This document shows, piece after piece, positions 10,768 through 45,513 of a stretch of DNA of 64,000 nucleotides (positions are counted from its first letter, which is position 1; every line of letters starts with the position of its first letter). The translations under genes and the position numbers were made by a program. Source of the DNA: Desulfovibrio sp. ZJ369 (GTDB lineage Bacteria > Desulfobacterota > Desulfovibrionia > Desulfovibrionales > Desulfovibrionaceae); contig NZ_JAAKEI010000014.1 in NCBI RefSeq assembly GCF_011039085.1, positions 1 to 64,000 of the forward strand. The letters are read 5' to 3'. Below the pieces are notes generated by a model that was not told the origin of the DNA, did not search any database, and saw only the letters and a list, made by a program, of their open reading frames with translations.

Positions 10768-11614
10768 TTAATTAAATAATGTTTTAATGTCATCCAGAGT
10801 TCCATTCACATGAAACCTGGCAAAAAGATCCATCGTCAAGTCAACCATGTGCAGACTTCGTGAAACAACGACCGATTTTCGGCGGAATCTGGCAAACCAG
10901 TGACGCTGGCGACAATTGTTCCTTTCTATACGGACTGTTCCACCTTTCCCCTGAAACAGATCGTTTTCGGCTATCTCCAGAGGATAAACCTTCCACTTGT
11001 CCGTACAGTAAAGCCAGACTTTCCACTTTTTCAAACGCTCCATCAATCTGTGGAGGGTAGCCTGATCACGCCCGCCACATTCCCAGTCGATGAGTTGACC
11101 GGTATCACGACAATAGGCTTTCCAGATCCAAAGTTTGTTTTTTTGACTTTAGATCAGATTACCTTTGACTTTTTATGAAAGTCAAAGGTGCCATTCAGGC
11201 GAAAAATGCGGTTTTCACCTGAATGTACGCCGCGTTGCGGCGGCTGCCGCTTTCGCGTCAGCAGAGCATTTTTAAAGTGAAAATGATCTAGAAAATGCCA
11301 CATTTCATCAAGTTCAACAATGATGGCCTCACCAGGTTCAGGCTTTTCATAAACACGTTCCGCAAAATTTCGTACCCAACGTAAAACAGCGGGGGGGGTG
11401 AAACATGAAAAATTCGGGCAATGGCAGACAGGGACAGACCCATGGTATACAGCGTGACAGCAAGGGCTTTTTCACTTGCCGGGCGGCCCCGTGGAGTGGT
11501 GCGAGTAAATTGAAATCCACAATTCTTGCAGCGATACCGTTGTTTTCCCAGAATCTTTCCGCTTCGATATACCGTGCTGGCATGGCACTTGGGGCAGTCG
11601 GGCTTTGCTTCCAT
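10768..11614 (-). pseudogene. IS1-family transposase, split by a MITE and frameshifted
   Basis: The N-terminal part has an InsA-like zinc ribbon (CPKC, then YRCKNCGFQF) and a helix-turn-helix (SLSAIARIFHVS). A run of eight C (minus strand, 11391-11398) shifts the frame. The next frame gives AVLRWVRNFAERVYEKP and the DDE start ELDEMWHFL. There the 141-bp element interrupts the gene. Beyond it follow WIWKAYCRDTGQLIDWE, CTDKW, and RIERNNCRQRHWFARF of the InsB catalytic end. Rejoining the halves needs one extra A in an A7 run. Homopolymer shifts could be slippage sites, mutations or sequencing errors, but the insertion alone kills the gene. Confidence 0.85.
11150..11290 (+). repeat. Element A copy 1 (141-bp MITE-like repeat) inside IS1
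   Basis: 141 bp with terminal TAGATCA/TGATCTA. The other copies have TAGAGCA/TGCTCTA, so both ends changed together. The body contains nested palindromes: TTGACTTT..AAAGTCAA, TTCAGGCG..CACCTGAA, and GCCGCGTTGCGGCGGC. TA borders both ends, consistent with a TA target duplication in the IS1 transposase gene. Confidence 0.85.
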
Positions 11615-11669
11615 GTGTTTCTCCTTTTGGAGGGATATAACACATTTACATCATATTATTAATACTCTC

Positions 11670-11996
11670 AAATTCCGCTACAGTCATACCCCTGCCCCGC
11701 AGGCCGCCAAAACGGACGCGCAAGCAGTCTTCAGCCGGACGCCGCTTGAACAAATGCGTCAGGACATGCAAACCGGAGAGAGAGTTCAGCGCGGCATATA
11801 CGTTGGCCTGCTGCCAGGGCCGGCCTTGCGCGAGGCAATGTTCGCGAGAGGCAGGACAGGCGCATCTTATGCGTCAGCCCTGCAGAGAGCGGCGAGAGGG
11901 CTTGCCTCAAGCGCGCCGCGACAGTAGGATCCATGCAGGCTTTGCCCGGCCCGGCATTGCGCGCCGGGGGCGGACGCCGGCAACAGGCTTCAGGAC
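11670..11996. other. Non-coding stretch between IS1 and repeat B
   Basis: No reading frame here has recognisable protein features. The only notable piece is GCATCTTATGCGTCAGCCCTGC (11863-11884), whose motif recurs inverted near 42590-42612 and is part of the local repeat vocabulary. The missing N-terminal half of the NE0113 gene is not recognisable here. Confidence 0.4.
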
Positions 11997-12146
11997 TAGA
12001 GCATTTTTTGATTGAAAATATCTATTTTCAATCACGTCGCTGCCATCATTTCGCGTCCAGAACGCGGTCTGGACGCTCATTCGGCGCGGGCGCCAGCTAA
12101 CGCTGTCGCCAGAGCGTTTAGCTAATGCCATTAGCAAAACGCTCTA
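11997..12146 (+). repeat. Element B copy 1 (variant, 150 bp)
   Basis: Starts TAGAGCATTTT and ends GCTCTA. It shares the internal blocks CGCTGCCATCATTTCGC and CTCATTCGGCGCGGGCG with the copies at 38460 and 45225, but its hairpin arms differ (TTGATTGAAAATATCTATTTTCAATCA; GAGCGTTTAGCTAATGCCATTAGC). The conserved blocks with variable but self-complementary arms point to a structured repeat family. Confidence 0.75.
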
Positions 12147-12173
12147 AACATTTGCGGCAATCAGGAGCATGCC

Positions 12174-13031
12174 ATGATCAGAGCCATTTCCGACACCCTG
12201 CCTCTCAACAACGGCCAGAGTATGCCCGGCTACGGCTTCGGCTGCTACAAGGCCTCAGGGCATGAGCTGGCTCTGGCCGTGCGCGAAGCCGTGGCCTGCG
12301 GATACCGCTACATTGATACGGCCGCCTATTACCGAAATGAAGATATTGTGGGCCGGGCCCTGCACGCCTGCGGGATCCCCAGAGAAGAGCTTTTTGTGCT
12401 CTCCAAAATCTGGCCTTCGGATTTCGGAGCTCCGGCGCGGGCTTTGGAGCAGAGCCTCAGGCTTTTGGGTCTTGAGTACCTGGACGGCTGTCTGCTGCAC
12501 TGGCCGGGCATGGACGTTTCCTGCCGCCTGCGCGTTTTTGAGGCCCTGCTGCGCTTGCAGGAGCAAGGCAAGATCCGCGTGCCGGGCGTTTCCAATTTTC
12601 TGGCCGGGCATCTGATTCCGTTGCAGGAGAATTTTGGTTTCTGGCCTGCTCTGAATCAGATTGAAATCCATCCTTTTTTCACGCAGTCCGCATTGTGCCG
12701 TTTTTGCGCTGATCGCGGCATCCGGGTCATTTCCTGGAGTCCGCTGGGCAGAGGCAGGGATCTGGAACATCCGATGGTGCAAAGTCTGGCCGCGGAGCTC
12801 CATAAAACACCGGCTCAGATCGTCCTGCGCTGGCATCTGGAAAAAGGCCTGCTGCCCATTCCCAAGTCCGTGCATGCCGAGCGGATCAGAGAGAACGCCG
12901 ATGTTTTCGATTTCAGCCTGGATGCGGCGCAAATCGCGGCGTTGGACGGGCTTGAACTGCCTGAAGGCCGGGGCAGAATGGGGCCGGATCCGCTTTGTTA
13001 CCCGCCCGTGCAGAGCAGGAAAGATTCATGA
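12174..13031 (+). CDS. Aldo/keto reductase
   Basis: A 285-residue NADPH-dependent oxidoreductase of the AKR superfamily, closest in pattern to 2,5-diketo-gluconate/methylglyoxal-type reductases. The catalytic tetrad is complete: Asp48 and Tyr53 in YIDTAAYY, Lys78 in LSKIW, and His109 in LLHW. The late IPKSVHAERIRENADVFDF segment is the cofactor-binding motif. An AGGAGC precedes the ATG by five bases. It stands alone between a repeat and the convergent ybaK gene, so context gives no substrate. Confidence 0.9.
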   Translation: MIRAISDTLPLNNGQSMPGYGFGCYKASGHELALAVREAVACGYRYIDTAAYYRNEDIVGRALHACGIPREELFVLSKIWPSDFGAPARALEQSLRLLGLEYLDGCLLHWPGMDVSCRLRVFEALLRLQEQGKIRVPGVSNFLAGHLIPLQENFGFWPALNQIEIHPFFTQSALCRFCADRGIRVISWSPLGRGRDLEHPMVQSLAAELHKTPAQIVLRWHLEKGLLPIPKSVHAERIRENADVFDFSLDAAQIAALDGLELPEGRGRMGPDPLCYPPVQSRKDS

Positions 13032-13046
13032 ACGTCGGGCCAGGCC

Positions 13047-13547
13047 TCACACGGGCGCACGGGCCAGAAACGCATAGCGCCCGTTGACCGCGCGCAGCAG
13101 ATCGTCGGGCTTGAGAAAAAGCTGCAGGCCGCGCGCGCCCGCGCTTACATAGATGCGCTCGCAGGCAGAGGCGCTGTGATCCACAAAGACGGGATAGGCT
13201 TTTTTCGCGCCCAACGGGGAACAGCCGCCGCGCCGATAGCCGGTGAGGGGCAGCACATCCTTGAGGCGGACCATTTCCGCATGCTTGTTGCCGGAAGCCT
13301 GGGCCAAAGCCTTGAGATCCAGTTCGGCCGCCGCCGGGATGCAGGCCATCAGCACCCCTGTCCTGTCGCCTCTGGCGACCAGCGTTTTAAACACGCATTC
13401 CGGCGCCGCGCCCAGAGCGCGCGCCATGCTCACGGCGGAAAGATCCTTTTCATCCACGTCTACGCGATGCAGGCTGAAGGCAATGCCCATTTTTTCAAGC
13501 AGACGGGCAGCGTTGGTCTTGGAAATTTTGGCGGCTGAAACGCTCAT
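13047..13547 (-). CDS. ybaK: Cys-tRNA(Pro)/Cys-tRNA(Cys) deacylase YbaK
   Basis: A 166-residue single-domain YbaK/EbsC editing protein that hydrolyses mischarged Cys-tRNA(Pro) in trans. Typical features are the N-terminal ARLLEKMGIAFSLHRV, then VFKTLVARGD with its conserved lysine, and YRRGGCSPLGAKK, the GxxSPxG loop of the family. It is convergent with the aldo/keto reductase. A possible 41-codon gene lies 21 bp upstream on the same strand. Confidence 0.92.
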   Translation of the reverse strand: MSVSAAKISKTNAARLLEKMGIAFSLHRVDVDEKDLSAVSMARALGAAPECVFKTLVARGDRTGVLMACIPAAAELDLKALAQASGNKHAEMVRLKDVLPLTGYRRGGCSPLGAKKAYPVFVDHSASACERIYVSAGARGLQLFLKPDDLLRAVNGRYAFLARAPV

Positions 13548-13568
13548 GGCGAGGATGCGAGCCGGCGA

Positions 13569-13694
13569 TCAATGCCGGCTGAGCCAGTAGGAGGGTTTTT
13601 TGCGCGGAACGGCAACGTCAAACGGCCTGGAGATATGGTCGTCCATGCCTGCATCCAGAATATCGTCAATAGTGTCGGGCAGCGAAAGATTCAC
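13569..13694 (-). CDS. Possible small protein of 41 residues, unknown
   Basis: A GTG-started frame directly upstream of ybaK, in the same direction. It reads MNLSLPDTIDDILDAGMDD and ends PSYWLSRH, with a GAGGG about eight bases ahead of the GTG. It is acidic at the N-terminus and basic at the C-terminus, with no membrane segment and no known motif. Support is codon character, ribosome-site position and the 21-bp gap to ybaK. I do not recognise a family, and it could be chance. Confidence 0.35.
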   Translation of the reverse strand: MNLSLPDTIDDILDAGMDDHISRPFDVAVPRKKPSYWLSRH

Positions 13695-13873
13695 TTTGAG
13701 AGTCCCTCACATATAAATCCCTGGAGTGCCCTTACGATATATTTTCTTTAATTTCATAGAGATATAGGAAAACCCCGGAGCCTGACTCTGACATTTCATG
13801 CCCCGGTGATCCCTTGGTTGATTATCCATTTTCTTATCCATTTTTTTGTCTTCTTCTTTATTTAAAAATCGTT

Positions 13874-14014
13874 TAGAGCATTTCCACTTTGAAAATGCTC
13901 TGCTGACGCGAAAGCGGCAGCCGCCGCAACGCGGCGTACATTCAGGCGAAAACCGCGTTTTTCGCCTGAATGCCACCTTTGACTTTCATAAAAAGTCAAA
14001 GGTAATCTGCTCTA
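13874..14014 (-). repeat. Element A copy 2 (141 bp, inverted orientation)
   Basis: Ends TAGAGCA at 13874 and TGCTCTA at 14014. The body is the reverse complement of the copies at 20418 and 38321 with few changes. It ends 10 bp before the start codon of an IS630-like fragment. Confidence 0.88.
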
Positions 14015-14024
14015 GATTGCAGAG

Positions 14025-14300
14025 ATGAAATTTGCATCTGAAGAAATCCGAACCAAGGCTGTTCATGCGTATCTTGATGGAAAAGCAACAGCCAGGCAAT
14101 TGGCAGATATTTTAGGTTATACCCCGGCTAGCATCTGCAATTGGGTCAGAGCTTACCGTGAAAACCAACGATTATCAGCCAAACCCAATGGCCATCGCCC
14201 AAGTTGTTTCTCATGCGAGGAGATTCGGGAATTGCAAGCCCTTCTTGATAAAAATGGTGATATGACGCTTCAGGAAATTAAAGAGCATTTTATTGAACAC
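14025..14300 (+). pseudogene. IS630-family transposase fragment (N-terminal HTH)
   Basis: About 90 codons resembling the first helix-turn-helix region of IS630-type transposases: KAVHAYLDGKATARQLADIL, then SICNWVRAYREN, followed by EIRELQALLDKNGDMTLQEI. The catalytic DDE portion is absent. The frame runs into the right end of an IS200/IS605 element at about 14301 and stops shortly after. IS630 elements insert at TA, the same dinucleotide that borders the 141-bp repeats. Confidence 0.7.
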
Positions 14301-14481
14301 TCCACCGGCTAAAGCCGGTGGATTCACCTTGGCGACTAAAGTCGCGTTCCGGCTAAATCCGGTATGGTTCCTGCTGAAGCAGGCTTAAGTCATTCACCCT
14401 CAATCCGGAAGGTCTCATCAGCATCTTCCTGTTGAGCAATGTATTGCTTGATAACCTCATCGGTCACATTACCACTGCTGC
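14301..14481 (-). mobile_element. IS200/IS605 right-end remnant with last 30 codons of tnpA
   Basis: On the minus strand a frame from 14481 to 14390 reads SSGNVTDEVIKQYIAQQ, then DADETFRIEGE and stop, the C-terminus typical of IS200/IS605 TnpA. An upstream in-frame stop shows the rest is gone. Between the stop and 14301 are four small hairpins: CCACCGGCTAAAGCCGGTGG (14302-14321), GCGACTAAAGTCGC, CCGGCTAAATCCGG and CCTGCTGAAGCAGG. The first is probably the right-end hairpin recognised by TnpA. It truncates the IS630 fragment. Confidence 0.75.
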
Positions 14482-14775
14482 AACAGATTCAAAATTTTAT
14501 CATCGGTTGCTATGTGCGATACAAATATTATCTATATCTTTGCCACCAATTTCCTTGTGGGGAAACTCCTGCCAGAGACAAATATGCCAGACCGTATCCT
14601 CATACCAAGAGACAGTTTGCAAAGGCTTCTGTATGAGAACATATTGCTTTTGAAACGCTCGCTCCGGCGCGTAACGGCGCAAGTACATTGCGTCTGCGCC
14701 TGTCTCTGCTGTCGTCATCCGTAAGGCGGCACAGCCGCCAACGGCTGACGCGCGCGGACATGGCTTCGCCCTGCC
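14482..14775. other. Non-coding remnant DNA
   Basis: AT-richer than its surroundings, with several short open frames on both strands but none with recognisable motifs or a ribosome site. Probably further debris of mobile elements. Confidence 0.4.
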
Positions 14776-14811
14776 AGAGCGTTGAGCTGCTTTCATGAGC
14801 AAAACGATCTA
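14776..14811. repeat. Palindromic repeat C copy at the metallophosphoesterase stop codon
   Basis: AGAGCGTTGAGCTGCTTTC followed by ATGAGCAAAACGATCTA forms an imperfect hairpin. Its terminal CTA (14809-14811), read on the minus strand, is the TAG stop codon of the neighbouring gene. It may also act as a transcript-end hairpin. Confidence 0.6.
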
Positions 14812-15492
14812 CTCCAGCACGCGCAGCTCCGCGGACAATTGCCCGGAGTTGGAGCGCAGCACCACATAGCCGCCCGCGGCCAGGGCGCCGGGGTTGACCA
14901 CCACCGTGCGCCCCACGCGATCCACGGCGCGCGCCTCGTGAATATGGCCGCAGAGGCAGATGTCGGGCTGGGCCTCTTCCAGAAACTCGCGCACGGCCAT
15001 GGAGCCCACATGTACGCCGCCCGGGATCACGTCGCAGGCCGTGTCCTTGGGCGGATTGTGCGAGACCAGCACCGTATGCGGATACATACGGGCGCGCTGC
15101 CATGCGGCTTCCAGCCATGCGGCAAAGGCGGATTCGGGATACTCGCTGGGCGTGCCGAAGGGCGTGAACGTGGAAGCGCCCACCCCGAAAACGGCAATCT
15201 CCGGAGTCAGTTCGCGGGTGAAGGTGTGCAGATTCCAGCCTTTTTCGCTGAGCCAGGCGTCCACCTCCGGGCGATCCATATTGCCGATCTGGGCCAGGAC
15301 CGGGATGTCGTGGGCGCGCAGAGCTTCCATGACCAGTTCGGCCTGCTTGACCCCGCCGGTGATGGTCAAATCGCCGGTCACGATAACCCCGTCGGCCTGA
15401 GACAGCTCAGGGATTTGATCAAAACGCGCGGGCTCGTCGTGGATGTCGCCCACGGCGATCCAGAGGTAGTCCCGGGTAGCAGCGCTTGGCAT
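14809..15492 (-). CDS. Metallophosphoesterase, calcineurin-like
   Basis: A 227-residue phosphoesterase with the metal-binding motif series: GDIHD near the start (DxH), TGDLT (GD), GNMDRPE (GN-type), LVSHNPP (H), and CGHIHEAR (GHxH). The fold is that of YfcE/Icc-like phosphodiesterases; the substrate is unknown. The ATG at 15492 has AAGGATG upstream. The frame extends to 15633 but that part is antisense to the divergent folate gene. Its stop codon comes from a palindromic repeat. Confidence 0.88.
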   Translation of the reverse strand: MPSAATRDYLWIAVGDIHDEPARFDQIPELSQADGVIVTGDLTITGGVKQAELVMEALRAHDIPVLAQIGNMDRPEVDAWLSEKGWNLHTFTRELTPEIAVFGVGASTFTPFGTPSEYPESAFAAWLEAAWQRARMYPHTVLVSHNPPKDTACDVIPGGVHVGSMAVREFLEEAQPDICLCGHIHEARAVDRVGRTVVVNPGALAAGGYVVLRSNSGQLSAELRVLE

Positions 15493-15550
15493 GACGGTAC
15501 ATCCTTTGTTATAGAACTTTTTATGGAAATTCTGCCATAACTCCTGCCAG

Positions 15551-16189
15551 ATGAAAAGAGCCGCCATGCCCGAGAAAGCCGTTGATTCCGCAGAGTCCCC
15601 TGGCGTGCAGAAAGCCGCCCTGCGCGAGCGCATCCGCAGGCAACGCCGCGAGCAGCCGCCGGGCCTGGCCCGCGCGCGCAGCCTGGAGGCCCAGCAGCGC
15701 CTGCTGGATGCCCCATGCTGGGGCGCTGCGCGCTCCGTGGCCCTTTATGTGGCCCTCAAGGGGGAAGTGTCCACCGATGCATTGCTGGAGGCCGCCTGGC
15801 GGAGCGGGCGCACAGTCTATCTGCCGCGCGTGCATCCGCATGAGCCCGGCCGCATGAGCTTCGTCGCCTGCGCCGGTTTTGCGCAGTTGCGGCCCGGCCC
15901 CTTTGGACTGCGCGAGCCCGAGGAAAGCCTGCCCGGCTTTGGAGCGGAAGACATCGGCAATGGTTTTGACCCGGATCTGCTGGTGCTGCCCGGCCTGGCC
16001 TTTGACCGGCGCGGCGGCCGCCTGGGTTTTGGCGGCGGCTATTACGACCGTTTTCTGGACGACGCCAGGCTGCACTGCCCGCGCGTGGGCCTGTGTTTCG
16101 CCTTTCAGGTGTTCAGGGAGCTGCCTCTTGAGCAATGGGATCAGCGCGTGCAGTTTCTGTGCACGGAAGAGAGCTTCGTATGTCTGTGA
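15551..16189 (+). CDS. fau: 5-formyltetrahydrofolate cyclo-ligase
   Basis: A 212-residue enzyme that converts 5-formyl-THF to 5,10-methenyl-THF with ATP. The C-terminal signature GLAFDRRGGRLGFGGGYYDR is the family's ATP/folate loop, and an early basic stretch (ALRERIRRQRREQ) fits the N-terminal helix. A second ATG at 15566 with a weak AAGAG may be the real start. The stop overlaps the next gene by 10 bp, so the two are co-transcribed. Confidence 0.92.
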   Translation: MKRAAMPEKAVDSAESPGVQKAALRERIRRQRREQPPGLARARSLEAQQRLLDAPCWGAARSVALYVALKGEVSTDALLEAAWRSGRTVYLPRVHPHEPGRMSFVACAGFAQLRPGPFGLREPEESLPGFGAEDIGNGFDPDLLVLPGLAFDRRGGRLGFGGGYYDRFLDDARLHCPRVGLCFAFQVFRELPLEQWDQRVQFLCTEESFVCL

Positions 16190-16935
16190 GTTTCCTTCCT
16201 TTTGCCTTTCCGGGGCTTGAAAATGTGCGCTGCGTTTTTCAGACCCGTCCGGGCGGGGCAAGCCGGGGCGCATACGGCGGCGGCAATATCTCTTACAGCA
16301 CGGGCGACGACCCCGCCCATGTGGCGGCCAACCGTTGTTCTCTGCTGCAAAGTCTGAAAGGCGAGGGCCTTGCCGCCTGGGCCGAGCTCAATCAGGTGCA
16401 CAGCGACACCCTGGTTTTCGAGCCGGATGCCGTAGGCTGTGAGGCGCAAGCCATAGTGGACGGCGACGGACTGGCCTCGTCGCGTCCGGGCCTTGGCCTG
16501 CTGATCAAGACGGCCGACTGCCAGCCCATTCTGCTGGCCCATCGCAGCGGCCGCCACATAGCGGCCTTGCATGTGGGCTGGCGGGGCAATCGTTGCAACT
16601 TTCCGGGCACGGGCGTGGCCCGCTTCTGCGCGCATTACGGCCTCAGGCCGCGCGATCTGGTGGCCGTGCGCGGGCCGAGCCTGGGGCCGGAAAAGGCGGA
16701 GTTCGTCCATTTCGAGCAAGAGTGGAGCGCGGACTTTCGCCCCTGGTTTGATCCGGCTTCGCGCACAATGGATCTCTGGGGGCTGACCCGCGCGCAGTTG
16801 CTGGAGGCCGGGCTTCTGCCGCGCCATATCTACAGTCTTGACTGCTGCACTTTTTCACTGCCAGGTCAATTCTTTTCCTACCGGCGGGAAAAGAAGTCCG
16901 GCCGCCAGGCCAGTCTGATCTGGATGACAGGCTGA
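16180..16935 (+). CDS. pgeF: YfiH/PgeF-family multicopper-like protein (laccase domain)
   Basis: A 251-residue protein of the DUF152/YfiH family. Members act as purine nucleoside phosphorylase/adenosine deaminase or as a peptidoglycan-editing factor (both reported for the family). The metal ligands are visible: NQVHSD, KTADCQP, and ALHVGWRG. The start at 16180 lies inside the preceding folate gene; the longer frame is out-of-register coding sequence. Confidence 0.88.
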   Translation: MSVSFLPFAFPGLENVRCVFQTRPGGASRGAYGGGNISYSTGDDPAHVAANRCSLLQSLKGEGLAAWAELNQVHSDTLVFEPDAVGCEAQAIVDGDGLASSRPGLGLLIKTADCQPILLAHRSGRHIAALHVGWRGNRCNFPGTGVARFCAHYGLRPRDLVAVRGPSLGPEKAEFVHFEQEWSADFRPWFDPASRTMDLWGLTRAQLLEAGLLPRHIYSLDCCTFSLPGQFFSYRREKKSGRQASLIWMTG

Positions 16936-17035
16936 AGTCCGCGCGTATTGATGGCGTAGCGCGTTTTGCGCATGAAAGGAGCTGAACGCTCTCATCTTTC
17001 GATACGTCAGCCCTGTGATCCGGGTCCGGGCCGCA

Positions 17036-17064
17036 TTGACAGCGCGCCGCCCCGCGTCTAGAGT
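17036..17064 (+). promoter_or_regulatory. Sigma-70 promoter of the cobalamin riboswitch/btu operon
   Basis: TTGACA at 17036-17041, a 17-bp spacer, then TAGAGT at 17059-17064. Transcription would begin near 17071, right where the riboswitch begins. Confidence 0.6.
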
Positions 17065-17070
17065 GCTCCC

Positions 17071-17232
17071 TGGCTACGGTAGCCGGGCTTTTTCCGGCTT
17101 GAAAAGGGAATCCCGTGCGAAGCGGGAGCGGACCCGCCGCCGTGAGCCCCATAACCGCATCCCTTTTTGCGCCACTGGAAACGGGAAGGCCGGGACTGCG
17201 GGGGGCAAGCCGGAAGACCTGCCGTGCCGCGG
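17071..17232 (+). ncRNA. Cobalamin (B12) riboswitch aptamer
   Basis: The order of conserved blocks is that of the AdoCbl riboswitch: AAAAGGGAA (17102-17110), CCCGTGCGAAGCGGG, CCGCCGCCGTGA, GCCACTGG, GGGAAGGC, and the B12 box GCCGGAAGACCTGCC (17209-17223). It lies between a good promoter and an intrinsic terminator upstream of btuCDF. B12 binding should therefore reduce expression of the transporter. Confidence 0.93.
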
Positions 17233-17312
17233 AGCCGTTTGATACGGGCTTCGGCAGCGGTGTCTACCGCTCCGGCAACGGGTTTTTGCCGGAAAGGCGG
17301 AGGAAATACGGA

Positions 17313-17344
17313 CCTCTTCCATGACGCATGGAAGGGGTTTTTTT
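17313..17344 (+). terminator. Intrinsic terminator of the B12 riboswitch
   Basis: Stem CCTCTTCCATG/CATGGAAGGGG with a three-base loop, followed by seven T. It lies 80 bp after the aptamer, fitting a transcription-termination expression platform. Confidence 0.8.
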
Positions 17345-17534
17345 GTGGCCTGCGGCGCCTGCCGGGCGGCCGCGGCGCGGGACAGCTCGCGGGTGCGCTG
17401 TCACAACCTTGCGCAAGGCTCACTGCAGGCCCTCCGGCATGAGCGGGCGGTACGCCGCCACATGGAGAAAGGCTGCTTTGCGGCGGACGATGTACTGAGG
17501 GCTGACCCCAGCAGCAGCCCGGGCGGTTGAGCAC

Positions 17535-18617
17535 ATGAGCAAGCCGGATCTGATCCCCGCATTTTCAGGAGCGGCCGCGCAACGCCGCCTGTTATGGGCC
17601 TTGGCCGGGCTCGCGGCGCTCTGGCTTTGCTCCCTGCCCCTGGCCTGCCTGCCCGGTCCGATGCCCTTGAGCGCGCACGAGGTTTTCCGGGCCCTGGCCG
17701 TGAATTTCGGTTTTTCGGACGCGCCGCAGAACAGCGCGCAATCGCTGGTGGTGAACCAGATCCGTCTGGCGCGGGTCTGTCTTTCGGCGCTCTGCGGCGG
17801 GGCCCTGGCCGTGGCCGGAGTCGCGCTGCAAGGCGTGCTGCGCAACCCGCTGGCAGATCCTTTCACCCTGGGCATTTCCGCGGGGGCGGCCTGCGGAGCC
17901 AGCCTCGCCATTGCCCTGGGCGGCATGGCCGGAAGTCAGATTCGTTTGTCCGGCCTGTTCGGGCTGTCCCAGGCGGGGCTGGTGGCTCCGGCAGCCCTGG
18001 CCGGAGCCTTGCTGGCGTTGTGCGGTGCGCTTTGGCTGGGCCGGAGCCGGGGAAGCTTCAGCCGGGAGAGCGTGATTCTCGCAGGCATTGCCGTGGCCGC
18101 CTTTCTGGGGGCGCTGGTGGCGCTGATCAAGGCGCTGAACGAGGAATCCGTCACCAGCATCGTATTTTGGATTATGGGTTCCCTGCAGGGCCGCGGCTGG
18201 GACAGCCTGCCCCTGCTTCTGACCACGCTCGTGCCCGGGCTTCTGGCCGTGGCTCTGGGCTGGCGCGCCCTGGATGTGCTCTCCCTGGGCGACGAGCAGG
18301 CCGCGCAACTGGGTCTCAACGTGGGCCGGGCGCGTTTCTGGCTGCTGGCCGGGGCCAGTTGCATGACTGCCGGTTGCGTGGCGGTGGCCGGCGTCATCGG
18401 TTTTGTGGGTCTGGTGGTGCCGCATGTGCTGCGCCTGCTGCTGGGGGCCGGGCATGGGCCGTTGCTGACCGGCGCGTTTTTCGGCGGCGGTATTCTGCTG
18501 GTCTGGGCCGACGTTCTGGCCCGCAGCGTACTGGACGGCGGCCAGGAATTGCCGGTGGGCGTTGTGACGGCCCTTTTGGGCGGCCCGTTTTTCGCCATGC
18601 TGGTGCGGAGGCGCTGA
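17535..18617 (+). CDS. btuC: Cobalamin ABC transporter permease, FecCD family
   Basis: A 360-residue inner-membrane permease of the BtuC/FecCD family with about ten hydrophobic segments. Recognisable blocks are VNQIRLARV, the GVALQGVLRNPLADPFTLG motif near 100, and late GFVGLVVPHVLRLLLG, which contacts the ATPase. The upstream riboswitch makes cobalamin (or a precursor) the likely cargo. Its stop overlaps the start of btuD by 1 bp (TGATG). Confidence 0.93.
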   Translation: MSKPDLIPAFSGAAAQRRLLWALAGLAALWLCSLPLACLPGPMPLSAHEVFRALAVNFGFSDAPQNSAQSLVVNQIRLARVCLSALCGGALAVAGVALQGVLRNPLADPFTLGISAGAACGASLAIALGGMAGSQIRLSGLFGLSQAGLVAPAALAGALLALCGALWLGRSRGSFSRESVILAGIAVAAFLGALVALIKALNEESVTSIVFWIMGSLQGRGWDSLPLLLTTLVPGLLAVALGWRALDVLSLGDEQAAQLGLNVGRARFWLLAGASCMTAGCVAVAGVIGFVGLVVPHVLRLLLGAGHGPLLTGAFFGGGILLVWADVLARSVLDGGQELPVGVVTALLGGPFFAMLVRRR

Positions 18618-20369: not shown

Positions 20370-20417
20370 AAAAGTTCTTCCGCCCCCTGGCAATGTCCGG
20401 GGCCCGGGCTTGTGTTC

Positions 20418-20558
20418 CAGAGCAGATTACCTTTGACTTTTTATGAAAGTCAAAGGTGGCATTCAGGCGAAAAACGCGGTTTTCGCCTGAATGTACGCCG
20501 CGTTGCGGCGGCTGCCGCTTTCGCGTCAGCAGAGCATTTTCAAAGAGAAAATGCTCTA
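20418..20558 (+). repeat. Element A copy 3 (141 bp)
   Basis: Lies between btuF and cbiL. The left end reads CAGAGCA rather than TAGAGCA; the right end TGCTCTA is intact. The body is identical or nearly so to the copy at 38321. It may place a structured RNA between transport and biosynthesis genes of the B12 operon. Confidence 0.88.
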
Positions 20559-21350: not shown

Positions 21351-21359
21351 GAAGAACCC

Positions 21360-21394: not shown

Positions 21395-21402
21395 AGGGAT
21401 CT

Positions 21403-36850: not shown

Positions 36851-37176
36851 TTATGTTCTGGCGGGTTTTCCTACTGGTCGCTTTGGGCCTGGTGAACGTG
36901 GTGCTTTTCAGCCGTATGATTTGGGGACCCACCGGGCTTGTGGAATACCGCGAGCTCAAAGGGCAGTATGCCGAACTTCAAAAAGAGCTTGCCGACATTG
37001 ATACGGAAAATCTGGCCTTGAGCCAGGAAATTCGCCTGTTGCAGTCCGACAGGCAGTATGTTGAGAAAATGATTCGGCAACGCCTGCATTATGTGCGGGA
37101 TAATGAAGTGTTATACCTCTTTGGCGATTCGCGCGAGACCGGATCGGGAGCCGTAAAAGATGACGGAAAAAATTGA
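36847..37176 (+). CDS. ftsB: Septum formation initiator FtsB/DivIC family
   Basis: 109 residues: one N-terminal transmembrane helix (FWRVFLLVALGLVNVVLF), then a coiled coil with heptads (LKGQYAELQKELADIDTENL), and the YVEKMIRQRLHYVRDNEVLYLF end typical of FtsB. It bridges FtsQ and FtsL in the divisome (family knowledge). It overlaps the next gene by 17 bp. Confidence 0.85.
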   Translation: MIMFWRVFLLVALGLVNVVLFSRMIWGPTGLVEYRELKGQYAELQKELADIDTENLALSQEIRLLQSDRQYVEKMIRQRLHYVRDNEVLYLFGDSRETGSGAVKDDGKN

Positions 37177-38323
37177 ATGGTATAAAGAGGTTCTGGAGCT
37201 GGAACCCAATTCAAAGGTTTTTTTCCCCCTTGCCCGTATGTTGGCCGAAGAGCAACGGTACGACGAGGCCGTGGAGGTGCTGGAGCGCGGGCTGGAGCGG
37301 CATTCGGAATTTCTGGAGGCCCGGCTTTTTTTTATTGAACTGCTGTTTAAAACCGGGCGGCGGCCTGCCTGCACAGCCCAGGTCAACAAGCTCAGCACAA
37401 TGTTCGCCGCCTACGCGGGTTTCTGGCAGGCGTGGGCCGCTTGCCTTTCGGTTTCGGGAGAATCGCCGGATGCCGCCGCTGTCTTGCGCGTTCTGGCTGC
37501 CAATTTTTTGCGCGGCCCGGTCTCGCTGCATGAGCTTCTGGATCGGGGCGTTGCCTCCCTCCTGGAAGAAAGCGCCGGGCAGGAAAGCGGCCGTCCTGTG
37601 CCCCAGCCGGTAAACGCTGCGGGCGAGGCGCAGATTGCGCCGGTACAGCCGAAACTCGCGGAAGATGCGCCTCAATCCGGGAGTACGGAAGCTGAATCTG
37701 TAAAAAGCGAGGGCTTTTTCGCGTTCCCCGAAAGCGAAGAAAACGAGATGCTGTTGCCGCTGGAAGACGCGCCCGGCGCGTCGGCCGCCCCGCCGGACAC
37801 GGACGTTGCATCCTTTGCTGATGCTCCCGAACCGGAGTACGGCGGCGAGACGTCTTTTGATCCCGCTGCGGCCATGGCCGACGACGAGCCTTTGCCGGAA
37901 GAAACATCTGCCGCTGTGCGGCAGGAGGCCGAAGCCGATCCCGCGGCGCAGGATTCTGCTGCAAAGGATCAGGCCGACGCCGGGCCGGGAACAGAAAGCG
38001 CCGTCTCTCCCCGCGATGAATCCGAAGACGCCGAGGAACGCTTTTCCCTGCGCACCCGCTCCATGGCGGAAGTGCTGGCGGAGCAGGGCGACATCAGGGG
38101 CGCTCTGGACATTTATTATGAGCTGGCTGCAGCCGCGGTCAGCCTTCAAGAGGCTGCCGATCTGCAGCAGCGCATCGCTACCCTGAGCGCGCGGCTCGGC
38201 ACGGCCCAGGAAGCGGATGCGGCGCAGCCCCCGGCCCAGCCGGAGTCTGCCAGCGGCAAAGACAAGCTGATCAGCATGCTTGAGGCGTTGGCGGAGCGCG
38301 TGGAAGCCAGGGCGCACAGCTAG
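37160..38323 (+). CDS. Tetratricopeptide-repeat protein
   Basis: 387 residues. An N-terminal TPR-like superhelix (VFFPLARMLAEEQRYDEAVE, VLERGLERHSEFLEARLFF), a long acidic, alanine/glutamate-rich linker (about 160-300), and a C-terminal TPR unit (SMAEVLAEQGDIRGALDIYY). A scaffold role is likely, partner unknown. Its TAG stop is the first three bases of the 141-bp element at 38321, so the original C-terminus may have been different. Confidence 0.8.
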   Translation: MTEKIEWYKEVLELEPNSKVFFPLARMLAEEQRYDEAVEVLERGLERHSEFLEARLFFIELLFKTGRRPACTAQVNKLSTMFAAYAGFWQAWAACLSVSGESPDAAAVLRVLAANFLRGPVSLHELLDRGVASLLEESAGQESGRPVPQPVNAAGEAQIAPVQPKLAEDAPQSGSTEAESVKSEGFFAFPESEENEMLLPLEDAPGASAAPPDTDVASFADAPEPEYGGETSFDPAAAMADDEPLPEETSAAVRQEAEADPAAQDSAAKDQADAGPGTESAVSPRDESEDAEERFSLRTRSMAEVLAEQGDIRGALDIYYELAAAAVSLQEAADLQQRIATLSARLGTAQEADAAQPPAQPESASGKDKLISMLEALAERVEARAHS

Positions 38324-38461
38324 AGCAGATTACCTTTGACTTTTTATGAAAGTCAAAGGTGGCATTCAGGCGAAAAACGCGGTTTTCGCCTGAATGTACG
38401 CCGCGTTGCGGCGGCTGCCGCTTTCGCGTCAGCAGAGCATTTTCAAAGAGAAAATGCTCTA
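38321..38461 (+). repeat. Element A copy 4 (141 bp), chained to element B
   Basis: TAGAGCA...TGCTCTA, exactly 141 bp. Its first TAG ends the upstream TPR gene. Its last TA is also the first TA of element B at 38460. Confidence 0.9.
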
Positions 38462-38643
38462 GAGCATTTTGCTTTTGAAATTATTCAATTTCAAAAGCGA
38501 CGCTGCCATCATTCCCCGCAAGCGGGACAAGTCCCCGCAAGCGGGACAAGCGCCTGAAAAGCGTGGTTTTCAGGCTCATTCGGCGCGGGCGTCCGCTCCG
38601 CGGCCGCCAGAGCGGTTGCCGTTTTCAACAGCAAACCGCTCTA
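38460..38643 (+). repeat. Element B copy 2 (184 bp)
   Basis: Starts TAGAGCATTTTGC and ends CCGCTCTA. It shares all blocks of the 150-bp copy at 45225 but carries a 34-bp insertion made of two near-identical units, TCCCCGCAAGCGGGACAAG. The long arms TTTTGAAATT/AATTTCAAAA and GCGGTTGCCG/CAGCAAACCGC form hairpins. Confidence 0.8.
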
Positions 38644-38660
38644 AAGCAGAGGAGAGTACG

Positions 38661-40154
38661 GTGTCAAAATCATTGTTGCGTTGTTTTCTTTTGCTGATAG
38701 CCGTTGCGGCATTGGCGGTCGGCTGCAGTTCCTATCAGCCCACCAAAAACGCCTGGAAAAGCACCAAAGGATTCTGGAACACCTACGTCAGCCCTCCGGC
38801 CACTGTGGACTATGAAGAAAAAGGGAATCTTTCCCCCCGCGCTCTGGCGCTGACGACTTCCATGCTGGGCATTGACGTGGAGTTGGGCCGCCTCGAACGC
38901 GTCATGCTCAATGCTGACAAGCCGCCCACAAAGGAATGGATCGCCGATTTCTTCACTACCTTCCCCTGGATCGACGGCTTTGCGGGCGTCAAGTATGACG
39001 GCGCCATACTGGGGCAGGAGCCGGCGACTTCTCTGAAAGAACTGGATTTCATCCCCCTTCTTTATGAAGATAAAAAACAAAACAGCCGCGCGTTGCGCGG
39101 CGATGTGCAAAACACGCCTCTGGGGCCGGAAGTCATGCTGGCGGCTCCGCTCTACGATGGCGTGGACTTCCTGGGCATTGTGGCGGCATACTTCGACATG
39201 CGGGCTCTGATGCAATATTCCGACAATCCGGAAAATCTGGTCATTCTTTCTCCTCACGCGCTGCTCTGGCCCGGCAAGTATGATTTCGCAGCAACGCCCC
39301 TGGCCGGCGTGAACTGGTCTGAGACCGTGGCCAAAAGCTCTTCCGGCACATGCACCAATGCCACAGGCACTTTTTATTATATGGTGCGTTACCTGGGCAA
39401 TCTGCCCCTGGTTTTTGCCGTGGCCGAGTCAGGCGCCTTCCCTGAAGGCAACGGCGATGTGGCGCAGGGGCTGCCGTTCTTTCCCAGGGAACGGGAAAAA
39501 CTGCCGCCGCCGCCCCAGCCCGAGAGGAAGACCAAAGTCGATTTGTCCGAGGGACAGACCTTCGGAACGCCTGCCCGGAGCGGCGCATCTGACGGCAATG
39601 CCGTAGGCGCGCCCACCGGGACTGCGGGAGGAACTTCGCCCAACGACATCCAGCCGGGCAGCCGTGACAGTGTGTTGCTCAAGGGCAAGGGCGCGGAAAA
39701 ATCCCGCGTGGATGAACGTCCTCTGGCAGGCGAGAATGCGCCGGTGGAGCGCGTGCGGCGTCCCGCCAAGGCCACTGCGCCCCAGCGCCCGCGCCGCGCT
39801 CCGAGCGTGGATCTTGTGCCGGATATCGATATGCCCTCCTTGCCCGGCGGCCGCCCCAGCCCCTTCGGGCCCGCGCGCGAGGCTCCGGGCATACAGCGGC
39901 CCAGTCCATTCGGACCGCGCACGGACGCGACGACCGCCCCGGTTGAGGCATCCAGGCGGGAGCCCAATCACGACGAGCAGCGTAATGAGCAGGCCCCGGC
40001 AGCGCAGCAAACCGAGACCCCGGCGCAGCAGGACGCGCTGCCTGCTGCGCAAACAAAACCGTCCGAGAACAAAACCACGGACAGCACGCCCGCAGCAGAG
40101 CCGCCTGCTCAACTGCCGGGCGGTCGCCCGAGTCCCTTCGGACCGCGGAACTGA
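38661..40154 (+). CDS. Lipoprotein with sensor-like N-domain and proline-rich RPSPFGP repeats
   Basis: 497 residues from a GTG at 38661 with AGAGGAGA upstream. The signal peptide ends in a lipobox (LAVGC, cysteine about 20). Residues about 50-250 look like a Cache-type extracytoplasmic domain ([20 protein letters not shown]), though this is a weak call. The last 230 residues are disordered, rich in Pro/Ala/Gln, with the motif RPSPFGP three times (GGRPSPFGP twice). No catalytic motif. An outer-membrane or periplasmic lipoprotein of unknown role. Confidence 0.75.
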
Positions 40155-40254
40155 GGCATCGTGGAAATACTGGCTTGCGCCGCCCGTCAGGGTGGCGCAG
40201 ACCGTTACTGAGCCGGATCCAAACTCGCATTCCGGCCTTAGCAAGGAGGTCATC

Positions 40255-41262
40255 ATGGCTGACGTTACGGTTACCGAGCACCTTCTTCTCCACCAGAAGC
40301 AAACCCCCCAGGCCACAGGGCAGTTTACCGGTCTGCTTTACGATCTTATTCTTTCCGGGAAAACCATTTCCCGCCGCATCAACAAGGCCGGTCTGCTTGA
40401 TATTCTGGGCGGCACAGGCGAAGTGAATGTGCAAGGCGAAAATGTGCAAAAGCTGGATGAAATCGCCAACCGGATCATGATCTACCGGATGGAACGCTGC
40501 GGAGCGTTGTGCGCCATGAGCTCTGAGGAGGAGGCCGAGCTGATCCGCGTCAGCCCGGAATTTCCCCGCGGCGACTATATCCTGATTTTTGATCCCCTGG
40601 ATGGCTCCTCCAATATTGACGTCAACATCAATGTGGGCACTATTTTTTCCATTTTGCGGCGGCCGGAAGGCTGCACGGGCGAGGTGGCCCTGGAAGAAGT
40701 GCTCCAGCCCGGCCGCAATCAGGTGGCGGCAGGCTACATCTTATATGGCCCTTCCACCATGCTGGTGTTCAGCACCGGGCAGGGCGTGCACGGCTTTACA
40801 TTAGACCCCGGCGTGGGGGAGTTTTTGCTTTCCCATCCCAATATGCGCATTCCTGAGCAAGGCGGCATTTACTCCGTCAATGAAGGCTACAGGAACAACT
40901 GGGATGCGCCGACCCGCGAAGCGGTGGACTGGTTTCACAATTGTGAAACCCAGGACGGAAAATTTTATTCTTCCCGCTATGTGGGCGCCCTGGTCGCGGA
41001 TTTTCATCGTACCCTGATTTACGGCGGCATTTACATGTATCCGCCCTACGTCAACAAGCCCAACGGCAAGTTGCGCTTGATGTGCGAGGCCTCGCCGCTT
41101 GCTTTTCTGGCGGAACAGGCGGGAGGCAAGGCCAGCGACGGCAAGCGCCGGATTCTGGATCTCCAGCCTGAGCGCCTGCATGCCCGCACTCCTCTTTTTA
41201 TCGGTTCCGTCAAAGACGTGGAAGCCGTGGAAAAAGTCTATGCCAGGCACAAGACTGCCTGA
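40255..41262 (+). CDS. fbp: Fructose-1,6-bisphosphatase class I
   Basis: A 335-residue gluconeogenic phosphatase. Metal and substrate motifs: [14 protein letters not shown] near 115, [32 protein letters not shown], and [11 protein letters not shown]. It has an ideal AAGGAGG seven bases before the ATG. It is followed 89 bp later by tsaD. Confidence 0.96.
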
Positions 41263-41351
41263 ACCGGTTTGGCGTCGATTGTTGCGCCCTGGCATGGGAC
41301 TGCCTCGACCTGTCCGCTCAGGCCTCGCTCTCAACTCCGGAAGATGGCTCC

Positions 41352-42437
41352 ATGCTTTGTCTGGGTATTGAAAGTTCTTGCGACGAAACCGCCTTGGCTC
41401 TGGTGGAGGACGGACGCCTGCTGGGTTCCGTGCTGGCGAGCCAGTCCGATGTGCATGCGCTTTTCGGGGGGGTAGTGCCTGAACTGGCCTCGCGCGAGCA
41501 TTATCGCTATCTGGGGCCTCTTTTTGACGAGCTTATGCAGCGTTGCGGCGCAGAACCGGACAGTATCGATCTTGTGGCTGTCGCGCGCGGTCCGGGTTTG
41601 CTGGGCAGCCTGCTGGTGGGCGTGGCCTTTGCAAAAGCATTGGCTTTGGGCTTGGGCGCGTCCTTTCTTGGCGTCAATCATCTGCATGCGCATTTGCTGG
41701 CCGTTGGGCTGGAACACGATCTGACATTTCCGGCCCTGGGGCTGCTGGTTTCCGGCGGGCACACCCATCTTTACCGCCTGGAGTCGCCCTGGCGCTGCCT
41801 GCAGTTGGGCCGCACGCTGGATGATGCCGCGGGCGAGGCCTTTGATAAAGTGGGCAAACTTCTGGGATTGGCGTATCCCGGCGGTCAGTTGATGGACGCG
41901 TTGGCAAGGGCCGGTGTGGCCTCTTCCGGGCTTTTCCCTCGCCCTTACCTTGACAATGACAACCTGGATTTCAGTTTCAGCGGCCTGAAAACGGCAGCCG
42001 CCGCGTATATTGAGCGGAATTTTGGCTCCGCGCAGTGGCCGCGCCCTTTGCGGCGGATTGAAGACGCGCCGGAATCCTTGAGAAATTGTTGCGCCTCCTT
42101 CAATGCAGCAGTGGTGGAGACGCTTTGCGCAAAAGTGGAGCGTGCCTTGAAGCGCCATCCGGACTTGCGCAGGCTTCTGGTGGCCGGAGGCGTCGCTTCC
42201 AACAGCCTCTTGCGAACGCGCATGACAGAGCTGATGCGGGAGAGGGGAGGCGACGCCCTTATGCCGAGCCGCGCTCTCTGTACCGATAATGCCGCCATGA
42301 TCGCCTATGCCGGCTGGCTGCTCGGCAGTGCCGGTTATCGTCATGATTTGCGGATGGAGACTATCCCCCGCGGCAGATGCATCCCGGATGATATGTTTTG
42401 CGCGGCAGCCTGCGCCTCAAAGCTGCAAACCGACTGA
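41352..42437 (+). CDS. tsaD: tRNA N6-adenosine threonylcarbamoyltransferase TsaD
   Basis: 361 residues. It transfers the threonylcarbamoyl group to A37 of ANN-decoding tRNAs. N-terminal [14 protein letters not shown], metal-binding NHLHAH (His110, His114), [10 protein letters not shown], and [12 protein letters not shown] are all in place. About 340 bp of repeat-rich DNA follow. Confidence 0.97.
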
Positions 42438-42479
42438 AAGGCGCAGGGCAGACGCATCTAAGTATTAAGTGCAATAATT

Positions 42480-42612
42480 TTGTTATGTTATCATAAACGC
42501 TGAGAAGAGCCGCTGCGGCGGCGGAGCCGCACTTCGCTCCCACGAAGCCTGCGGCTTCGGGCGATGCTGTCGCATCGCCGCCAGGGCTGCCGCATAAGAT
42601 GCGTCAGCCCTG
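42480..42612. repeat. Hairpin-rich intergenic repeat block
   Basis: Consecutive inverted repeats between tsaD and trxA: GCGGCGGCGGAGCCGC, CGAAGCCTGCGGCTTCG, GCGATGCTGTCGCATCGC, and AGGGCTG...CAGCCCT. The last unit, with GCATAAGATGCGTCAGCCCTG, recurs inverted near 11863. No gene is seen; part may end the tsaD transcript. Confidence 0.55.
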
Positions 42613-42631
42613 CTGAAAGGCGCAGATTATC

Positions 42632-42660
42632 TTGACACTGAAGCGTTTGGAATCTACTCT
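42632..42660 (+). promoter_or_regulatory. Promoter of trxA-trxB
   Basis: TTGACA (42632-42637), a 17-bp spacer, TACTCT (42655-42660), about 120 bp before trxA. Confidence 0.55.
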
Positions 42661-42778
42661 CAGTGCATACGGCAACGGTCGCTGCCTTGCCGGCTGCCGC
42701 CTGCACAATGAGCGTCCCGCCGTTGCAGGCGTATCGACGCCTGAAACGTGACGCCAAGAAAAGCAAGGAGATATCCCA

Positions 42779-43102
42779 ATGGCTGAACAGGTAACTGACG
42801 CTACCTTTGAAAATGTCGTGCTCAAGTCCGAGCTGCCGGTTCTTCTCGACTTCTGGGCTCCCTGGTGCGGCCCCTGCCGCGCGGTGGGTCCGATCATTGA
42901 TGAGCTTTCCAAAGAATACGACGGCAAGGTCCGCATTGTGAAGATGAATGTTGATGAAAATCCCGCCACGCCTACTAAATTCGGCATTCGCGCCATTCCC
43001 ACTTTGGTGTTGTTTAAAAACGGTGAAACGGTGGAACAAATCACCGGCGCCGTCACCAAGGCGGCCATGAAAGAATTGCTTGATTCAAAGGCCCTGGCAT
43101 GA
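42779..43102 (+). CDS. trxA: Thioredoxin
   Basis: A 107-residue canonical thioredoxin: FWAPWCGPC with Cys30 and Cys33, the cis-proline loop AIPTLVLF, and the buried aspartate at DFW. It overlaps the reductase gene by 4 bp, giving a complete thioredoxin couple under one promoter. Confidence 0.97.
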
Positions 43103-44025
43103 AGGTATTTGACGCCGTTGTCATTGGCAGCGGGCCTGCCGGCATTACGGCTGCTTTATATCTTGCGCGCTCCGGCTGCTCCGTGCTCCTGTTTGAGCAA
43201 CTGAGCCCCGGAGGGCAGGTGCTTTCAACGGAATCCCTTGAGAATTACCCCGGCTACCCCAAAGGCATCAAGGGGTATGAGCTGGCGGATCTCTTTGCCG
43301 CCCATCTGGACGGCCTTGACATTGAACGGCCCACCGGTGCCGTGGAATCCGTTTCCGGCACGGCGGGCCAGTTCAATGTGCGCGCCAGCGGCGAGGTATA
43401 TGCCTGCAAAACCGTCCTGGTCTGCTCCGGCGCGCGTCATCGTCCCTTGGGCCTTGAAAATGAAGACAGGTTGATCGGGCATGGCGTTTCGTACTGCGCT
43501 CTCTGCGACGGAAATTTTTTTCGGGATCAGGCCGTGGCTGTCGTCGGTGGGGGCAACGCGGCTTTGGAGGAATCTCTGTACCTCTCCAACATTGCGGACA
43601 AAGTATATCTGATTCATCGACGCGAGGGATTCAGGGGCCTTAAAGTCTATCTTGACAGGCTGGAAGGCATGCCGGAGAAGGTCGAAATTCTGCGGAACAC
43701 CATTATTACTCGCCTGAACGGCGATACCGAGCTGACCGGCCTCACTCTTCAGAATGTTCAAACCGGTGAAGAGAGGCAGTTGCCCCTTGATGGCCTTTTT
43801 ATCTATGTGGGCCTCACGCCTGCCACGGAATTTCTGCCCGATGCGCTGGAACGGGATGCCCAGGGCTTTCTTGTGACGGATACGGAAATGCGTACCAATA
43901 TTCCCGGCATATTCGCAGCGGGCGATATCCGCTCAAAACTTTGCCGACAGGTTATTACCGCCGCGGGCGATGGGGCAACAGCGGCCCAGGCGGCCTTTAT
44001 CTTTTTGGAGCAGCTTCATCCCTGA
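43099..44025 (+). CDS. trxB: Thioredoxin reductase
   Basis: A 308-residue FAD enzyme with FAD motif [15 protein letters not shown], redox pair Cys133/Cys136 in [12 protein letters not shown]-binding GGGNAALEE, and the late FAAGDIRS. The NADPH loop ends in [10 protein letters not shown], where HRRE-type basic residues favour NADPH. Translationally coupled to trxA. Confidence 0.96.
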
Positions 44026-44249
44026 GCGGAGTGCGTTTACCTGATACGTTTGGATATAATCGGCGGCCTGAGCGGCTTTTGCGCCTCTCAGCCGCACTGG
44101 CCTCTGCGGCATCCAGGCCACATCGCGTGTCGGCGCTCAAAAGACCGGCATCGGCGTGGGAAGAGCCGCGAGAGCCTTCGCGGTTTTGGCTCGCAGGATC
44201 GCGTCAGCGATTTTGCATTCAATCTGTTTTGTCTTTTTGGAACAGCTCC

Positions 44250-44981
44250 ATGCATAAAAAACTGCTTCGCTCGCTCCTGCTTGTCATCAGCATGTTCGCG
44301 GTTTCCGGTTGCGGCATTATCGACATGATTTATCTGCCGCCTGCTGAAGATACCGCGCAAGAGATTTTTGAAGCCGGCAATGACGCCATGAGCGAGAAGA
44401 ATTATGTGCGCGCCGTGGAGTTGTATAATAAGTTGCGTGATGCCTATCCTTTTAGCCCCTATACCATTGATGCCGAGCTTTCCCTTGGCGACGCCTACTT
44501 TTTGGATGAAGAGTATGAGCTGGCCGCTGAAAGCTATAAAGATTTCGAGTCGCTGCATCCTCGTCACGAAGCTATTCCCTATGTGCTTTATCAGACGGGC
44601 ATGTCTCTCTTGAAACAATTCCGCTCCATTGACAGGGCCACGACGGGCTTGCAGGAAGCCTATGATTATTTCAACCGCCTGCGCCAGACCTATCCGGATT
44701 CTCCGTATGCCAAGAGCGCGGAAGAACATATGCTCACCTGCCGCAAACTGATGGCTGAGCATGAGCTGTACATAGCTGACGTGTTCTGGCACATGAAAAA
44801 ATACGGCCCGGCCTGGCGGCGCTATGAGTTTATCGTGGAAAACTTTAAAGATGTGCCGGAAGTTGCGGATCACGCCAAAGAAAAAGGTCTTGCCTCGTAT
44901 CATTATTACCGTGAAGAGCAAGGGGCCCAAGTGCGTGAAAAGCGGCAGGGTACCTGGCGGCAGTGGTTTACCTGGCTGTAA
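44250..44981 (+). CDS. bamD: Outer-membrane assembly lipoprotein BamD
   Basis: 243 residues with a lipoprotein signal ([15 protein letters not shown], cysteine about 21) and a TPR-type body: [39 protein letters not shown], and [13 protein letters not shown]. Length and layout fit BamD/ComL of the BAM complex. ATG at 44250; the preceding 224 bp after trxB have no clear gene. Confidence 0.88.
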
Positions 44982-45153
44982 TTCCGACATATGAGCGCAG
45001 AGACTGTCTCCAGGACCTGCTGACACGACGTTTTGGCTTTGGCCGCAGGCGAGCTCGGCGAGCCGTACGGAGAAAAACAGCACTTGGCTTGCGCTGAGCT
45101 TTGCCTAAAGAAACCGCTGTGGGTATCCGTATGCCGCTGCCGCGGCGACGGCC

Positions 45154-45189
45154 AGAGCGTTTTGCTAATGAAATTAGCTAAACGCTCTA
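45154..45189. repeat. Palindromic repeat C
   Basis: AGAGCGTTTTGCTAATGAAA followed by TTAGCTAAACGCTCTA, an 11-13 bp stem. It sits in the 887-bp gap between bamD and the CDF gene, which otherwise holds elements B and A. Confidence 0.65.
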
Positions 45190-45224
45190 AACGCGCGACT
45201 GTGCTCCAGCCGCTGAGATTTTTC

Positions 45225-45374
45225 TAGAGCATTTTGCTTTTGAAATTATTCAATTTCAAAAGCGGCGCTGCCATCATTTCGCCTGAAAAGCGTGGTTTTC
45301 AGGCTCATTCGGCGCGGGCGTCCGCTCCCGCGGCCGCCAGAGCGGTTTGCTGTTTTCAACAGCAAACCGCTCTA
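45225..45374 (+). repeat. Element B copy 3 (150 bp), chained to element A
   Basis: TAGAGCATTTTGC...CCGCTCTA with the same internal blocks as the 38460 copy but without its 34-bp insertion. Its final TA is the first TA of the adjacent element A. Confidence 0.85.
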
Positions 45375-45513
45375 GAGCATTTTCTTTTTGAAAATGCTCT
45401 GCTGACGCGAAAGCGGCAGCCGCCGCAACGCGGCGTACATTCAGGCGAAAAACGCGGTTTTCGCCTGAATGCCACCTTTGACTTTCATAAAAAGTCAAAG
45501 GTAATCTGCTCTA
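45373..45513 (-). repeat. Element A copy 5 (141 bp, inverted orientation)
   Basis: TAGAGCA at 45373, TGCTCTA at 45513, exactly 141 bp, in the orientation of the 13874 copy. It abuts element B through a shared TA. Confidence 0.9.

Follow-up and report, generated by a model that had tools for sequence, protein, structure and literature searches.

Results

Five copies of a short repeat in the window

The window analyzed here is a 64,000-nucleotide stretch of Desulfovibrio sp. ZJ369 (contig C12 in that genome), and it carries a short repeat, which we call family A, interspersed with remnants of insertion sequences and with members of sister families B and B2:

10768..11046, minus strand: DDE_Tnp_IS1 part of an interrupted IS1-family transposase gene (PF03400, E 1.5e-9)
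11150..11290, plus strand: family A copy interrupting the IS1-family transposase gene, TA on both sides
11288..11614, minus strand: InsA zinc ribbon part of the interrupted IS1 element (PF03811, E 2e-7)
11997..12146, plus strand: sister family element of B2 type, 150 bp, TA borders, plan similar to that of family A
13874..14014, minus strand: family A copy within a degraded element of the IS630 family, 10 bases upstream of its orfA, TA on both sides
14025..14312, plus strand: orfA (HTH) remnant of a helper-type IS630-family element, adjoining the 13874 copy
20418..20558, plus strand: family A copy, left border now CA instead of TA
38321..38461, plus strand: family A copy adjoining a B element, TA common to both
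38460..38643, plus strand: sister family B copy, 184 bp, with an internal duplicated unit, TA borders, similar plan
45225..45374, plus strand: sister family B copy, 150 bp, TA borders, left end a 17-nt exact prefix with an IS630 right end
45373..45513, minus strand: family A copy adjoining a B element, TA common to both

There are five family A copies, each of exactly 141 bp, three on the plus and two on the minus strand, and in this the initial annotation of the sequence was confirmed. Its description of the borders stands in part: TA is present on both sides of four of the five copies, but the 20418 copy starts with CA; the exact 7-bp terminal inverted repeat TAGAGCA/TGCTCTA is found at 13874, 38321, and 45373, but it has lost its first T at 20418 and reads TAGATCA/TGATCTA at 11150. 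The wider terminal inverted repeat of the family is imperfect, with 15 of 19 positions in agreement. The assertion that the element lacks coding capacity likewise needs to be narrowed. The 141 bp amount to 47 codons at most, into which no transposase fits; however, two of the six consensus frames are open through the element after a first TAG codon, and a mechanically called open reading frame (45234-45812, plus strand) passes through the 45373 copy, so the assertion holds only in the sense that there is no room for a transposase.

The internal stem pairs described earlier were recovered as five stem-loops in the predicted fold of the 38321 copy, whose sequence is identical to that of at least 11 further copies elsewhere in the genome. 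The predicted energy of this fold (RNA parameters) is -75.4 kcal/mol, compared with a mean of -35.7 for 50 mononucleotide shuffles (z -11.2).

Size of the family and its relatives in the genome

The genome-wide search for copies that the initial annotation had proposed gave 106 matches to the hairpin-1 pattern (at most 3 mismatches) in the 2.88-Mb genome and none in the reversed control, which excludes chance; coordinates are available for 100 of the 106 among the matches listed. From the window and 60 further stretches we gathered 92 hairpin-1 copies, 75 of which are full copies with enough flanking sequence; the remaining 17 were excluded because they are truncated, have a changed right end, have lost internal sequence, are solo, or run into the end of a stretch. 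Size is nearly invariant among the full copies (141 bp in 70, 140 bp in 4, and 142 bp in 1), and 60 of the 75 have TA on both sides, one or both TA being missing in the remaining 15. The 141-bp copies differ from their consensus by a mean of 1.87 bases, and 12 of the 70 match it exactly. No match to the element was found in the plasmid or phage collections, and the exact hairpin-1 sequence occurs in none of the stretches of the genome-contig collection, from which records near the window's genome may be absent.

Family A belongs, as one subfamily, to a modular set of repeats built from hairpins that is seen in several Desulfovibrio genomes. Related subfamilies of similar plan were seen in loci of G016, G055, G079, G024, G078, and G085 and in named MAGs. 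Other forms of the repeat include copies with internal deletions, 28-51-bp solo hairpins with TA at their ends, and one copy (L105:1488) that carries the end hairpin of another family. In the central hairpin the loop is kept (CGYG core), while the stem is changed on both sides from one subfamily to another.

Empty sites and target preference

The initial annotation proposed that the repeat was a mobile, MITE-like element and that empty sites would show whether the TA is duplicated; both points were borne out, since five empty sites have a single TA where the filled sites have two. The copy at 11150, which had been taken as proof of movement from its position between two TA in a transposase gene, does split an IS1-family transposase, and uninterrupted IS1 copies of the same genome (L009-L012) are without the element at that site, reading a single TA in L010 and L011 and CA in L009 and L012. 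The site of the 13874 copy reads ATCGTTTAGATTGCAG, with one TA, in uninterrupted IS630-family copies, L110 among them. The third empty site, that of L075:1398, is the TA of a B-type end hairpin, a sister repeat. The last two belong to copies in prophage genes (L172:1866 and L172:4552) on a viral contig of another genome (IMG record 2901948472); both copies are absent from the homologous L176 (IMG record 2899440089), which has a single TA at each place. We take L176 to be the window's own strain, because three other contigs of its record (L168, L169, and L171) are as similar to loci of the window's genome as they are to themselves. Left out of this count were L042, L151, L162, L082, and L024, which are other forms or are sites that do not show a single element cleanly inserted in unrelated sequence. 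A further copy in an IS630-type gene on C36 (L017/L080/L113:454) was rejected as an empty-site case: there is no TA at that point in its best uninterrupted relative, which is 82% identical.

The repeats are thus true miniature transposons that have inserted at many places in the Desulfovibrio genome. Family A is short, has no transposase gene, possesses terminal inverted repeats, duplicates TA at its empty sites, and is interspersed in high copy number. These results bear directly on the idea that the copies are structured RNAs or regulatory elements fixed at conserved positions, an idea to which the strength of the predicted fold and the alteration of the central stem on both sides across subfamilies lend some credit. 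Against it, the insertions are absent from close homologous sequences, and for location the empty sites contradict it; the copies occur in both orientations and lie in transposase and prophage genes, and Rfam gives a single match at gathering score in the window, to a cobalamin riboswitch situated outside the copies. We consider fixed elements highly improbable.

Extragenic palindromes of the REP/BIME type, spread by a Y1 (RAYT) transposase, would account for the high copy number, the palindromic modules, the abutting elements, and the solo hairpins. But such RAYT-associated repeats are extragenic and make no target duplication, whereas family A lies inside genes, has ends that match a DDE element, and in its 141-bp form is bordered by duplicated TA. 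On the strength of these duplications we reject a REP/RAYT origin for the 141-bp form, and we did not assign the family to this class; its probability is very slight.

Not every TA is an equally favored target. The sequence YTAR is found at 61 of the 75 sites, compared with 9.3% of 8316 background TAs, and at 46 of 59 once the 16 copies whose flank resembles the end of another element are dropped; CTAG accounts for 18 of the 75 sites as opposed to 1.8% of the background. No intergenic enrichment was seen: by crude ORF calling, 30 of the 75 sites fall in genes, compared with 304 of 636 YTAR sites of the background. We take this comparison to be uninformative because many of the loci are about 3 kb long and their genes are cut at the locus edges.

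The adjoining sister families, the size of the family, the YTAR preference, and the position of the 13874 copy within a relic of the helper type are observations additional to those of the initial annotation.

A resident IS630-type element with matching ends

The TA targeting had led to the guess that an IS630/Tc1-mariner-type helper is involved, and an element of this kind is indeed resident in the same genome. The DDE_3 domain (PF13358) occurs at nine places, two of which have diverged from the main IS (56% identity on C36 and 33% on C20). The best assembled copy of the main IS (C73:3520-4517) measures 998 bp from left end to right end; its orfA encodes an HTH (HTH_23, E 4.2e-7) and its orfB a DDE_3 domain (E 7.7e-37), and the protein matches Sleeping Beauty in sequence (5cr4, E 1.8e-5). 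In the L110 copy there is TA at both ends. The DDE_3 domain, the N-terminal HTH, and the terminal TA are those of the IS630/Tc1-mariner group.

The right end of this IS is found at 26 places in the genome (19 of them exact) and the left end at 24. Of the right ends, at least 14 are no more than 130 bases from a contig end, presumably because the assembler cannot resolve near-identical copies. The orfB of L110 has a stop near the C terminus that is absent in L109; as many copies run into contig ends and L110 bears this stop, no intact transposase could be read end to end.

Comparison of the ends of the repeat with those of the IS, as proposed in the initial annotation, revealed a likeness: 17 of 19 nucleotides are the same in the family A right end and the left end of the L110 IS, and 21 of 26 in the family A left end and the IS right end. 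In 22 of 70 copies the family A right end is exactly the first 17 nucleotides of the L110 left end. This L110 form is exact in only 5 of the 24 left ends; 18 have a second form, TAGAGCAATTTGACTTT, with two bases different, so that family A is a poorer match to the most frequent form of the IS left end. In family B, the first 17 nucleotides of the left end are identical to those of the IS right end in L111, and the right end is slightly different (TAGAGCGGTTTGC). At the one junction seen in L009, the left end of an IS630 element shares its TA with half of a family A hairpin that has been cut at the loop TA.

Distribution in the genus

Of 79 genomes of the genus, 24 (the window's own among them) gave matches to the helper protein, many of them short or weak, with 89% identity in G024. 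The window's genome and ten others of the 79, 11 in all, contain the 17-nt end pattern; among the ten others, DDE_3 is matched in G024 and G078 and has no match in the remaining eight. G016, with 23 matches to the repeat, and G079 (one contig), with 16 occurrences of the end pattern, are both without a DDE_3 match, so no helper of the IS630 type is seen there now. Among the matches listed, 37 of 48 are titled Desulfovibrio or Desulfovibrionaceae, and the other 11 are scattered. TAGAGC also stands at the apparent ends of a distant IS630 element in G015 (L122), which is 45% identical.

Discussion

Probable mobilization by the resident element

From the correspondence of the sequences we think it very probable that family A has been moved in trans by the resident IS630/Tc1-mariner-type transposase by means of shared ends. 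According to this proposal, the transposase would recognize the ends common to the IS and the repeat (TAGAGCA..TT..C.TTT.A), the short element would be cut and pasted in trans, and it would insert into a TA within YTAR, with duplication of the TA. The movement was probably recent, and the mover was presumably this particular transposase rather than another with the same end specificity. It would be otherwise if some other TA-specific transposase with this end specificity had moved the repeat and the resident IS630 shared only the ancestry of its ends. Such an enzyme could explain why the subfamilies use slightly different ends (as at the right end of family B), and its existence is compatible with the TAGAGC ends of the distant G015 element, with the diverged DDE_3 places on C36 and C20, and with the eight other genomes that have the end pattern and no DDE_3 match. 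Nonetheless, the main resident IS, with its 24-26 ends and their match to family A, speaks against it, and we judge this alternative unlikely. The repeat and the resident IS make a clear case of an IS-MITE pair in Desulfovibrio, with many insertions and a resident candidate helper; since there are also relatives that carry such repeats without a detectable helper, one can compare from species to species how such pairs amplify and decay.

Is the fold itself under selection?

The family also offers a natural test of selection on hairpin structure inside MITEs. In an alignment of the central hairpin (11 representatives, 10 distinct rows), 92.9% of the cells are paired and double changes occur in 5 of the 7 pairs. 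The covariation score was reached by none of 500 shuffles and the values fell when the pairing was slid; for another of the five measures, the number of further pair types, 81 of 500 shuffles attained the observed value. The rows were picked by hand: four come from the window's own genome, the G024 and A70 rows come from a single genome (L156 = L180), and two with a 5-nt loop misfit the fixed register. As the rows are thus related and hand-picked, the covariation is a lead only, and it may have arisen from template-switch correction of palindromes rather than from selection. One could imagine that the whole set forms a modular MITE lineage of Desulfovibrio under constraint by its fold, in which end hairpins are swapped between subfamilies, solo hairpins keep the same TA ends, and the central stem is rewritten around a conserved loop; we regard this as a rather doubtful, though conceivable, extension. 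If it were true, the folded single strand, whether as DNA during movement or as RNA, would itself be recognized and selected, beyond the terminal repeats.

Comparison with known systems

ERIC is a further TA-bordered bacterial MITE, in addition to those considered below. The Correia elements of Neisseria are described as small, with terminal inverted repeats and TA at the termini (PMC2229807); these and other TA-bordered MITEs have other hosts and other sequences, and we liken them to family A by description. The BOX elements of the pneumococcus are modular structured repeats with lone modules (PMC3049150), in which they resemble the family A set; however, they are tied there to ISSpn2, whereas the ends here are of the IS630 type.

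As to the putative helper, the ISY100 transposase is reported to suffice alone in vitro and to insert almost only at TA, which is duplicated (PMC2170065), and a preference for CTAG figures in the title of a paper cited there (Tenzen and Ohtsubo 1991). Family A shares with IS630 and ISY100, as so described, the insertion at TA and its duplication, but it has no transposase; the resident IS differs from them in that its two parts are in different frames in L109 and L110.

Among the papers listed on MITEs, IS630, REP, or insertion sequences in Desulfovibrio, no title or abstract opening describes such elements, and the words "Desulfo" and "IS630" are absent from the main text of a 2024 review of prokaryotic MITEs. 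The nearest precedent in the sources cited here is RUP of Streptococcus pneumoniae, a 107-bp repeat in 108 copies that inserts at TA, has insertions in IS genes, and has ends resembling those of the resident IS630-Spn1 (PMC2229807, PMC3049150). Insertion at TA, IS630-like ends, and insertions in IS genes are common to both; the likeness is one of kind, by description, and family A differs in its Desulfovibrio host, its length of 141 bp, its five separate stem-loops, and its several subfamilies. The kind of element is therefore already well known from cases such as RUP with IS630-Spn1, and it is the host that is new.

Small inserts and sequences adjoining the repeats

Three elements of the B type, the sister family of hairpin-built repeats with TA borders, harbour a second small insert of about 120 bp (L107:366-634, L083:144-405 and L020:2603-2871, as positions within the fetched stretches), which reads GCTTCAGCC...GCTACCGC. 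The loop site that it occupies is apparently common to two of these three elements, and no target duplication at the insert was seen in them on inspection by eye. A sequence resembling the right-end hairpin of the B-type elements is present in the window as an inverted pair, and it also adjoins other loci:

14768-14809 and 52276-52317, inverted: 42-nt pair

Copies of the 141-bp family A in three other stretches (L054, L058 and L077) are abutted by other TAGAGC ends, for example TAGAGCATTTTAACTTTAATTTTT, and these may be part of another IS630-like element. At the copy at 38321 in the window, the border TAG serves as the stop codon of a TPR-domain ORF (37160-38323, + strand).

Other features of the window

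17060-17240, +: aptamer of a cobalamin riboswitch, with a score of 99.9 bits
10190-10720, -: ORF carrying a Cas_NE0113 domain

A CRISPR-like array lies at 3203-3845 and comprises nine repeats at a spacing of 72-76.
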